A stretch of 36,640 nt of DNA from Parcubacteria group bacterium. GTDB lineage: Bacteria; Patescibacteriota; Minisyncoccia; Phycocordibacterales; Phycocordibacteraceae. Under the pieces are notes generated by a model. It was given only the letters and a program-made list of their open reading frames with translations, ran no database searches and was not told the origin of the DNA. Positions within the stretch are counted from its first letter, which is position 1. Every line of letters begins with the position of its first letter. Positions 12,054-14,257 of the stretch are shown here, piece by piece. A program made the translations under genes and the position numbers. Where the stretch lies: positions 1-36,640 of the forward strand of contig JAQBRJ010000021.1 of assembly GCA_028286545.1 (NCBI GenBank), written 5' to 3'.

Positions 12054-12890
12054 ATGAAGAATTTTCTGGTTACCGGCGGCGAAGGATTCATTGGCTCACG
12101 AATTGTTGGGCTAACGGAAGCTCAATCATATGATTTAAAATCGGGAAGCGATATTTTAGATACGCAGAAGCTCACGGATGCTTGTGAAAATATGGAGGGA
12201 ATATTTCACTGTGCAGCAAAGATAAGCGTTCCTGAAAGTATTAAGAAGCCTGATGAGTATCAGCTTCATAACGTGGAAGGAACTAAGAGCGTTATCGAGG
12301 TAGCAGAGAATGGCAGAAATAAGATTGTTTTCTCGAGTAGTGCTGCAGTGTACGGAGAATCAGATCACGAAGCCAAAGAGACGGATTCCTTGCATCCGAT
12401 GTCGCCCTACGCGCAGAACAAGGCAGACGGAGAAATGTTGCTCAAGGACTCAAACGTGCCGAACGTAATACTTCGGTACTTTAATGTATATGGTCCAGGG
12501 CAATCAGCAGCATATGCCGGAGTGATAACTGCGTTTATATCAGCAGCGCTCAAGAATGAAGATCTGGTTTTGTTTGGTGATGGCGAGCAAGTGCGTGACT
12601 TTGTGTATGTTGATGACGTGGCTCGTGCAAATATCGCTGCAATGGAGTCAGATATTGGCGGGGCAGAGGTCTTCAATATTGGAAGTGGCACCAAGACGTC
12701 GATTACGGAACTAGCTCAGGAAATCATTACACTCACGGGCTCATCTTCGAATATTCGACATGAGGCACCTCGGCTAGGAGATATTGTGTATTCGCAGGCT
12801 GATGTCTCAAAAGCGAGTAAATTGTTGGGCTGGAGAGCAGAAGTGTCTTTGGAAAATGGCTTGCGAAAGACGATAGCGTCCTTTATATAG
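12054..12890 (+). CDS. NAD-dependent epimerase/dehydratase (UDP-glucose 4-epimerase-like)
   Basis: Extended short-chain dehydrogenase acting on a nucleotide sugar. The Rossmann motif TGGEGFIGS is at residues 7-15, SSSAAVYGE supplies the catalytic Ser near residue 97, and YAQNK gives the Tyr-Lys pair near residue 120. RYFNVYGPGQ and VRDFVYVDDVARA are typical of the GalE/RmlB-like branch. At 278 residues it is shorter than GalE (about 330), with reduced loops. The exact sugar is not decidable. It closes the NUDIX operon, 5 bases after the previous stop. Confidence 0.88.
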   Translation: MKNFLVTGGEGFIGSRIVGLTEAQSYDLKSGSDILDTQKLTDACENMEGIFHCAAKISVPESIKKPDEYQLHNVEGTKSVIEVAENGRNKIVFSSSAAVYGESDHEAKETDSLHPMSPYAQNKADGEMLLKDSNVPNVILRYFNVYGPGQSAAYAGVITAFISAALKNEDLVLFGDGEQVRDFVYVDDVARANIAAMESDIGGAEVFNIGSGTKTSITELAQEIITLTGSSSNIRHEAPRLGDIVYSQADVSKASKLLGWRAEVSLENGLRKTIASFI

Positions 12891-12908: not shown

Positions 12909-12937
12909 TTGCAAATTGCAATAGATAGTGGTATTGT
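12909..12937 (+). promoter_or_regulatory. promoter of the putative small RNA
   Basis: TTGCAA (12909-12914), a 17-base spacer and TATTGT (12932-12937) form a good sigma-70-like pair. The expected start, near 12944, falls just before the left arm of the long helix. It lies 19 bases after the epimerase stop. Confidence 0.6.
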
Positions 12938-12943
12938 ATCGAT

Positions 12944-13077
12944 ACGTTCATGAGACAAGCTTTTTACGGCTTACTCACTTTTGGTGCTCACGTGCTGAAG
13001 GTATTTTTACAACTAGGCCGTAAAAAATTCGTTTCATGAACTGAAAGAACCGCCCGTAAGGGCGGTTCTTTCTTTGT
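12944..13077 (+). ncRNA. putative structured small RNA
   Basis: The plus strand folds on paper into one long arm. GTTCATGAGAC (12946-12956) pairs with GTTTCATGAAC (13031-13041) with one GU pair. A symmetric 4x4 internal loop follows, then TTTTTACGGC (12961-12970) pairs with GCCGTAAAAA (13017-13026). A bubble of 6 and 14 bases then opens, capped by ACTTTTGGTGC (12977-12987) with GTGCTGAAGGT (12992-13002), 11 pairs including five GU, loop TCAC. A terminator hairpin and U-tract follow at once. The GU pairs favour RNA over a DNA palindrome, and on the other strand they become A-C mismatches. The layout (closing stem, bubble, apical hairpin) recalls 6S RNA but is far shorter, and I recognise no known family. 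The same DNA could encode a 29-residue peptide (12950-13039), which I consider less likely. Confidence 0.55.
13043..13077 (+). terminator. intrinsic terminator of the putative small RNA
   Basis: The arms GAAAGAACCGCCC (13043-13055) and GGGCGGTTCTTTC (13060-13072) form a 13-bp stem with loop GTAA, followed by TTTGT. It starts 2 bases after the RNA's closing helix. As it sits 44 bases before the malic enzyme start, an attenuator role in that gene's leader is an alternative. Confidence 0.88.
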
Positions 13078-13105: not shown

Positions 13106-13111
13106 TATACT
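13106..13111 (+). promoter_or_regulatory. -10 box of the malic enzyme gene
   Basis: TATACT ends 9 bases before the ATG at 13121; no Shine-Dalgarno is present. This supports an independent start for the malic enzyme, downstream of the terminator. Confidence 0.45.
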
Positions 13112-13120
13112 GAACTTCTT

Positions 13121-14257
13121 ATGGACGCTAAATCAAAGAAGATACTCGCAGCATTTAAAAAGGCAGGCGCGCGCATCGAGACTAGAAGCCGCGTGAAGCT
13201 CAAGACAAAAGAAGACCTGGCTCTTTTCTATACTCCTGGCGTTGGCGTTGCTTCAACCTATCTTGCAGAGCACCCCGAGAAAGCGCGTGAGCTTTCTGTA
13301 AAGCGAAACTCAGTGGCAGTAGTTTCTGATGGTTCAGCAGTACTTGGTCTTGGAAATATTGGTCCGTACGGCGCACTTCCTGTTATGGAAGGGAAGGCAC
13401 TTATTTTCCGCGAGATGGCGGGTGTCGATGCGTGGCCTTTGGTGCTCGATACGCATGACCCAGATGAAATCGTGCGCACGGTGCTTGCTGTCGCACCTAA
13501 CTTTGGTGGTATCAATCTCGAGGATATAAAAGCTCCGGAGTGTTTTGATATCGAACGACGACTCATCGAAGCCCTCGACATTCCTGTTATGCATGATGAT
13601 CAACATGGCACGGCCATTGTTGCGCTCGCAGGACTCATCAATGCTGCGAAAGTCGTGAAGAAGAATATGAAGAAGTTGCGCGTAGTGATTTCTGGCGCAG
13701 GCGCAGCAGGCACTGCCGTTGCAAAACTCTTGGTAGTGTCTGGCGTTACGGACGTTGTTGTTTTGGATCGTGGCGGCGCTATCTTTGACGGCAGACCGGA
13801 CCTGAATCATCACAAACAAGAACTTGCGGTGCGTACTAATCCTCGCAAGGCGAGTGGAAGCCTTAAAGAAGTGCTCGCAGCAGCTGATGTGTTTATTGGA
13901 GTTTCAGGACCGAATCTCCTTACGCGCGAAGATATTCGTACGATGAATACTGGCGCAATCGTCTTTGCGCTCTCTAATCCTGTCCCGGAAATACTTCCTG
14001 ACGAGGCGAAGGCAGGAGGCGCTGCAGTGACAGCAACAGGTCGTTCTGACTTTGCTAACCAGATTAATAATGCACTCGTGTTTCCAGGTATATTCCGTGG
14101 TGCGCTTGATAAGGGTGTGCGAGCGATTACCGAAGAAACAAAAGTACGAGCAGCCAAGGCACTCGCTGCGCTCGTGCCCGCACCCACGGCAGGCAAACTT
14201 CTTCCTGATATCTTCGATAAGCGGGTCGTTCCAACGGTTGCAAAAGCCGTTCGGTAA
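13121..14257 (+). CDS. malic enzyme (NAD(P)-dependent malate dehydrogenase, decarboxylating)
   Basis: Converts malate to pyruvate and CO2 with reduction of NAD(P). At 378 residues it belongs to the short bacterial form. The N-terminal domain carries FYTPGVGVAS with the catalytic tyrosine, SDGSAVLGLGNIGP and the catalytic-lysine segment MEGKALIFREMAGVDAWPL. The metal-binding acidic residues lie in GGINLEDIKAPECFDIERRL, followed by DDQHGTAIVALAGL. The dinucleotide domain has ISGAGAAGTAVAKLL (about 189-203), and SNPVPEI plus GRSDFANQINNALVFPGIFRGAL complete the signature. NAD versus NADP preference is not clear from sequence. The gene appears to have its own -10 box. It offers a fermentative or anaplerotic step in an otherwise sparse metabolism. 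Confidence 0.95.
   Translation: MDAKSKKILAAFKKAGARIETRSRVKLKTKEDLALFYTPGVGVASTYLAEHPEKARELSVKRNSVAVVSDGSAVLGLGNIGPYGALPVMEGKALIFREMAGVDAWPLVLDTHDPDEIVRTVLAVAPNFGGINLEDIKAPECFDIERRLIEALDIPVMHDDQHGTAIVALAGLINAAKVVKKNMKKLRVVISGAGAAGTAVAKLLVVSGVTDVVVLDRGGAIFDGRPDLNHHKQELAVRTNPRKASGSLKEVLAAADVFIGVSGPNLLTREDIRTMNTGAIVFALSNPVPEILPDEAKAGGAAVTATGRSDFANQINNALVFPGIFRGALDKGVRAITEETKVRAAKALAALVPAPTAGKLLPDIFDKRVVPTVAKAVR

Follow-up and report, generated by a model that had tools for sequence, protein, structure and literature searches.

A predicted small RNA of a Parcubacterium and its relationship to the leader hairpin of DGR-target mRNAs

In a Parcubacterium of the Kaiserbacteria group, an interval of 169 nt (12909-13077) between the genes for an NAD-dependent epimerase and a malic enzyme raises the question of what kind of RNA, if any, is encoded there. 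A first-pass annotation of the DNA had described it as an undescribed structured small RNA between these genes, and had proposed a miniature RNA-polymerase regulator, a different small RNA or an attenuator leader of the malic enzyme gene as possible identities. Here, we analysed the locus by folding, by comparison with related genomes and by searches against known RNA families. The window, i.e. the whole stretch of DNA that was analysed, has a length of 36.6 kb and all coordinates refer to it unless another locus is named; the genome it comes from is designated G000.

The RNA locus and its neighbours

When the 169-nt stretch was folded as RNA, its minimum free energy was -70.1 kcal/mol, as compared with -36.7 +/- 3.9 kcal/mol in dinucleotide shuffles (z -8.6, 0/200). 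The following features were recognised in and around it:

12054-12890, + strand: NAD-dependent epimerase gene, the upstream neighbour (an orthologue also lies upstream of the element in genome G020)
12909-12937, + strand: small-RNA promoter, with TTGCAA at 12909-12914, a 17-nt spacer and TATTGT at 12932-12937 (sequence and homologues)
12947-12973, + strand: 5' arm of the long stem, UUCAUGAGACAAGCUUUUUACGGCUUA (fold, 20-sequence covariation and leader-only model)
12950-13039, + strand: 29-codon frame within the RNA, judged non-coding (start or frame lost in most homologues)
12977-13002, + strand: apical hairpin of 11 pairs, five of them G-U, with the loop UCAC (fold; variable among homologues)
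13003-13013, + strand: single-stranded bulge AUUUUUACAAC, kept in all free copies and in a subset of leaders
13014-13040, + strand: 3' arm of the long stem, UAGGCCGUAAAAAAUUCGUUUCAUGAA (fold, covariation and leader-only model)
13043-13076, + strand: intrinsic terminator with a 13-pair hairpin, UUCUUUCUUUG (fold and terminator detection)
13106-13111, + strand: -10 box TATACT of the malic enzyme gene, a leaderless promoter 9 nt before the ATG and past the RNA terminator
13121-14257, + strand: malic enzyme gene (the name is that of the first-pass annotation), the downstream neighbour and a separate unit

The predicted RNA starts at about 12944-12947, at the foot of the stem, and its closing helix is formed by 12947-12973 paired with 13014-13040. 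Much of the architecture that had been proposed from the letters alone was recovered, including the 17-spaced promoter, though with only 8 of 12 consensus matches and missed by a generic promoter scan, the 11-pair apical hairpin with five G-U wobbles, and the intrinsic terminator immediately behind the stem, whose hairpin spans 13043-13072 and is followed by UUUG. Other details needed revision. The two-part closing helix is present but slightly longer than described, since CUUA/UAGG extends the stem by three pairs; the 4x4 internal loop could be located but holds two pairs; and the asymmetric bubble, given as 6 and 14 bases, is there with sizes of 3 nt (CUC, 12974-12976) and 11 nt (AUUUUUACAAC) on its two sides.

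A DNA search of 99 relatives gave partial matches in genomes of the same genus that fold alike. A covariance model (R1) was then run on 93 genomes of the genus, and the element was found in 24 of them; the named GTDB records among the carriers include Parcubacteria C7867-007 and C7867-008, Candidatus Kaiserbacteria and UBA6033. In 20 homologous stems, 91.3% of the cells were paired as compared with 78.8% in shuffles, double changes occurred at 19 of the 27 stem pairs (10.0 in shuffles), and the signal was lost when the partner was slid by 1-3 columns. The helix thus covaries across relatives, as the first-pass annotation had expected of a genuine RNA. The 29-codon frame, which it had named as the rival to the helix, has lost its start, frame or stop in most relatives, and the coding reading (29 aa) was rejected because the frame is not kept.

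The strand could also be assigned from the homologous stems: G-U cells exceed A-C cells (46 to 18), and the RNA strand is therefore the + strand, as had been claimed from the wobble pairs of the window. One U-G wobble, within CUUA/UAGG, recurs in 17 of the 20 homologues. The same excess of G-U over A-C, the direction given by promoter and terminator, and the model scores of the homologues, which are higher on the same strand, disfavour the reading as a DNA palindrome. The apical hairpin varies in position and length among homologues, has a loop that is sometimes GCAA or UUCG-like, and is absent in G023. In one class of homologues it precedes the U5ACAA motif and in another it follows, and the unpaired U4-5ACAA is found on the 5' side in other copies vs the 3' side in the window. 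A search with the core pattern gave no match in viral contigs and 13 matches in genome contigs, ten of them in Parcubacteria/Patescibacteria records; the three others (Woeseia, Phormidesmis and Prochlorococcus) are close to the number expected from base counting and were taken as chance.

If the RNA were an attenuator leader of the malic enzyme gene, the order of promoter, hairpin and terminator upstream of this gene and in its direction would be readily explained. However, the TATACT box 9 nt before the ATG appears to be the gene's own leaderless promoter, of a style common in the window, and the same element precedes unrelated genes, namely those for an ABC-transporter ATPase. The ABC ATPase genes behind other free copies, like those at all GtrA/ABC homologous loci, have the same arrangement with a -10 box near the ATG. 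Relatives that lack the element at the ABC locus (G115, G129, G011 and G052) have a GtrA/ABC intergenic region of about 50-60 nt without RNA and keep the ABC promoter intact. Because the downstream genes have their own promoters and empty sites exist at the sister locus, we regard the RNA as a separable unit and not as the leader of the next gene. An attenuator or riboswitch leader co-transcribed with the gene does not agree with these arrangements, and attenuation of the malic enzyme gene is highly improbable. As far as can be judged from sequence, the window RNA is an independent transcription unit: a free, structured and previously uncatalogued small RNA of about 130 nt.

TATAAT-like boxes 5-9 nt before the ATG were also seen at many genes of the window (e.g. 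at 1765, 9224, 11132, 13121, 18292, 24495 and 29466), which points to leaderless mRNAs as a common feature of the lineage.

Two settings of the hairpin: mRNA leader and free unit

Reading of the flanks of all copies revealed two arrangements of the hairpin, either within an mRNA leader or as a closed free unit. The order in the leaders is promoter, GTTCTTTGA box, hairpin, GAGACAGTCGC, small hairpin, ribosome site and gene, with the main hairpin some 40-90 nt 5' of the start codon; no terminator was detected in the 85 nt past the hairpin in any of 31 leaders. The genes that follow encode C-type-lectin target proteins of diversity-generating retroelements (DGRs); their products end in a DGR variable region ('..YVRTSSLDSDGxRVxVGxFDAxGLxV..W', also given as 'YVRTSS.DSDG.RV.VG.FDA.GL'), and in several genomes the target is followed by a template copy rich in adenine and by a reverse transcriptase of the DGR. 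With one of these reverse transcriptases as the query, a DGR reverse transcriptase was found in 28 of the 93 genomes of the genus. We refer to these leaders as family I. Many of them (L033-L064, L260-L276) contain, past the main hairpin, a further conserved box (GAGACAGTCGC or a similar sequence) together with a small hairpin rich in CCGA. One family I leader lies on another contig of the window's own genome (L065, G000:C12, hairpin at locus 2774-2832), where the DGR locus looks complete, with target gene, template repeat and reverse transcriptase.

The free unit, consisting of promoter, hairpin and terminator, occurs in G000 (the window), G038, G101, G105, G106, G126, G100 and G103b. Six of these eight copies lie between a divergent GtrA-like gene (another gene in G105) and a gene for an ABC-transporter ATPase. 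Their promoters are mostly TTGACA-17-TATAAT-like, and terminators were detected in seven, the eighth (G105) being recognised by eye. Every free copy has a bulge of the UUUUUACAAC type, which in G105 reads UUUCACAAC. Nearly all copies of the element have a promoter with 17-nt spacing; most homologues have better hexamers than the window, with 9-11 of 12 consensus matches and identical spacing, and the promoter is weak in the window and in G103b (6/12). The distance from the end of the -10 box to the stem is 5-9 nt in four copies, the window among them.

The free form is patchy, being present in about 10 of the 93 genus genomes. Both an mRNA-leader copy and a non-DGR copy are carried by G000, G033 and G103, and six genomes with a non-DGR copy (G038, G101, G105, G106, G100 and G020) have no detectable DGR reverse transcriptase. 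In G020 and G033, the copies (L040, L043) lack a terminator; that of G020 is directly upstream of a zinc-ribbon-like gene and that of G033 directly upstream of argS, and both may serve other, ordinary genes as leaders.

To avoid circularity in relating the two settings, a further model (R3) was built from ten DGR-target leaders only, without any free copy. It matched the 36.6-kb window at a single locus (12948-13039, 48.8 bits, E 1.9e-9). Each of the nine other non-DGR copies was also matched, with 31-59 bits and on the strand expected, and there was no match to those empty GtrA/ABC loci, 6S-like RNAs or leaders of a second family that the search included. This comparison shows homology between the body of the predicted free RNA and the long hairpin that DGR targets of the same lineage have in their 5' leaders, a kinship that the first-pass annotation had missed. 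The window RNA and the leaders share the long stem AUGAGACGAGC...GCUCGUCUCAU and the CGGCUUA/UAGGCCG apex, and the UUUUUACAA bulge is found in several leaders as in the window RNA, the conserved bulge being present in those of G004, G057, G030 and G131. On the other hand, the leaders have a boxA, lack a terminator and run into their gene, whereas the window RNA lacks a boxA, ends in a terminator and stands alone; the gene behind it is that for malic enzyme and not one with a variable region. It can be classed as a small RNA with kinship to an mRNA leader, in which boxA has been exchanged for a terminator.

BoxA is an antitermination signal that is bound by NusB/NusE in model bacteria. A box was counted if it agreed with TTCTTTGA at 7 or more of the 8 positions and lay no more than 60 nt upstream of the hairpin. 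By this criterion, it was found in 30 of 45 leaders as compared with 58 of 1632 control windows, and in none of the 10 non-DGR copies (the best match in the 60 nt upstream of the window RNA was 4/8). The leader box was read as an rRNA-type boxA because a box of this type is also present in the rRNA operons of the genus, where it lies downstream of the promoters in the 16S rRNA leaders.

Across the order, R1 detected this leader layout in another 18 genomes that do not belong to the genus of the window. Most of the 17 such sites that were read out precede a variable-region gene, and none of them was another free copy ending in a terminator. A second type of leader (family II, GUUCGCCACAGCAGAAAGCGGCUUA..UAGGCCUUUCUCUGCUGUGGCGAAC) is also in use at DGR genes of the genus, and its model (R2) found members in 42 of the 93 genus genomes and in 30 of 286 genomes of the class, distributed over 27 genera. 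Family II leaders precede related genes of the C-type-lectin variable type, with a boxA upstream, often several per genome and also where a reverse transcriptase is absent; no Rfam family was found for them. Examples are L168, L169, L171, L196, L198, L205 and L214, among others, at about 1501-1556. The two families share the GGCUUA/UAGGCC apex and the layout; however, R2 scored only one member of family I, and weakly (23.2 bits). Because R2 hardly scores family I, a shared origin of the two families is likely but no more than suggested.

The candidate phyla radiation is unusually rich in DGRs (PMC8144416). We found no description of the DGR-target leaders or of their free copy in Rfam or in the literature searched, from which subscription journals were mostly absent, and no cis-acting RNA signal on DGR target genes was described in that literature. 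The leader family and its free copy thus appear to be new. A conserved leader with promoter, rRNA-type boxA and long hairpin marks DGR-target genes across the order, and the second family does so across the class, in genomes with and without a reverse transcriptase; the leader is also a sequence tag with which targets distant from any reverse transcriptase can be found. In the window lineage, the hairpin has become a free-standing small RNA.

Comparison with 6S RNA and other known families

Searches of Rfam at gathering and at permissive thresholds gave nothing convincing for the window RNA. No family reached threshold, and the first-pass description of the element as an undescribed structured small RNA held well: the RNA has its own promoter and terminator and is non-coding. 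By score, the best sub-threshold match was BjrC1505 (RF02356, E 0.0089), an alphaproteobacterial sRNA; its 25.1 bits are half of the gathering score of 50, the match includes many non-standard pairs, and it rests mainly on the terminator hairpin.

The suggested likeness to 6S RNA deserved closer attention. Similar to 6S RNA (RF00013), the window RNA is a rod with a closing stem, an internal bulge and an apical stem, and has its own promoter and terminator. However, it is shorter, its bulge is effectively one-sided with a side that is not fixed, and RF00013 gave no match in the window, either at the gathering score of 46.4 or up to E 10 around the RNA, and none in G000. Full-length matches below threshold were obtained elsewhere in the genus (35.1 bits in G002 and 29.6 bits in G034). 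These 6S-like RNAs are homologous rods of 145-165 nt adjoining ndk, several of them directly followed by a terminator-like hairpin, and in related genomes they lie between ndk and an MBL-fold gene. Their signature pattern was detected in 20 of the 93 genus genomes, in several with 3 mismatches. L215, L216, L217 and L218 represent a divergent 6S-like RNA below the gathering score, and the RNA beside ndk is a candidate for extending RF00013 to Patescibacteria.

In view of the missing RF00013 match and the separate 6S-like RNA beside ndk, identity with 6S RNA was rejected; nor does the window RNA have the large central bubble of fixed orientation by which 6S mimics an open promoter, as 3 nt face 11 nt and the unpaired side swaps. 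A miniature RNA-polymerase regulator like 6S, or a put-like polymerase-binding RNA, would agree with the stem-bubble-stem shape, with the RNA start at the foot of the closing stem and the immediate terminator, and with the pairing of the hairpin in the leaders with boxA, a transcription-elongation signal. In addition to the arguments against 6S identity, the single-stranded side is 3' in some homologues and 5' in others, which would not be expected of a promoter mimic, and we consider such a regulator quite improbable. Since no 6S-like copy was found in the window genome (which is incomplete), G038, G101 or G105, 6S may be absent there, and the window RNA might conceivably serve as a functional stand-in.

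Possible function of the free RNA

The best explanation, to which we assign a probability of about 0.45, is that the free RNA of about 130 nt, homologous to the DGR leaders, acts in trans as a decoy or mimic of the leader hairpin. Because the leader hairpin comes after boxA, at some distance from the ribosome site, and has no terminator behind it, we infer that it is a putative target of a general transcription or RNA-processing factor. It would probably affect the processivity of transcription or the processing or stability of the mRNA, and not act by hiding the ribosome site or by attenuation. The free copy would present the same hairpin and the UUUUUACAAC bulge in trans to the factor that recognises the leader or, alternatively, present the bulge to another partner of that bulge. 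The kinship suggests that the free RNA controls or imitates leader-carrying messages. CsrB and CsrC are small RNAs that act as sponges or decoys, and, by analogy, the window RNA would work by imitating a protein-binding leader hairpin, although it consists of a single long hairpin without repeated GGA motifs.

Several observations bear on the partner of the free RNA. It is not the retroelement enzyme, because genomes that lack the reverse transcriptase keep the RNA. In four of these (G038, G101, G105 and G106), no leader was found by either model; the decoy idea is weakened there, as there is no leader to imitate. A duplex between free RNA and leader was rejected by co-folding, in which two separate hairpins are preferred and pairing is not energetically favoured.

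Another possibility is that the free RNA works in trans through the exposed UUUUUACAAC bulge, pairing with mRNAs or binding a protein that recognises U-rich RNA. The stem would then be a scaffold, and the kinship with DGR leaders would reflect ancestry without shared function. This would fit the persistence of the RNA in genomes without a DGR. It would also fit the pattern among the copies, in which no part of the free form is as constant as the bulge, whereas the apical hairpin is variable and can lie on either side of it. The presence of the same bulge in DGR leaders of the four genomes mentioned above means, however, that it is not specific to the free form, and we regard this possibility as rather unlikely. 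It is unlikely, too, that the element is a remnant without function, left by a DGR leader whose target gene was lost, or a small palindrome that was inserted. The patchy occurrence and varied positions could be understood in this way, and the copy in G021 looks like such a leftover; on the other hand, compensatory changes in the stem, the retained promoter and bulge, a terminator adjoining the hairpin in eight genomes, and, in six, the unchanged location between one and the same pair of genes all speak against decay.

If the decoy reading is extended to the lineage as a whole, Parcubacteria might possess a dedicated RNA control circuit for surface or recognition genes diversified by DGRs. Each target mRNA would carry a nut-like leader (boxA and long hairpin) bound by a putative factor, and in Kaiserbacteria, the free copy would titrate this factor and thereby tune the hypervariable proteins. 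We consider this wider proposal doubtful. The hairpin itself offers an affinity-capture handle on the regulation of hypervariable proteins in otherwise silent genomes.

We also noticed that the 16S rRNA genes of G057 and G030 (L155, L156/L160) are split by large insertions, so that the model matched them in separate pieces; these insertions are probably introns.
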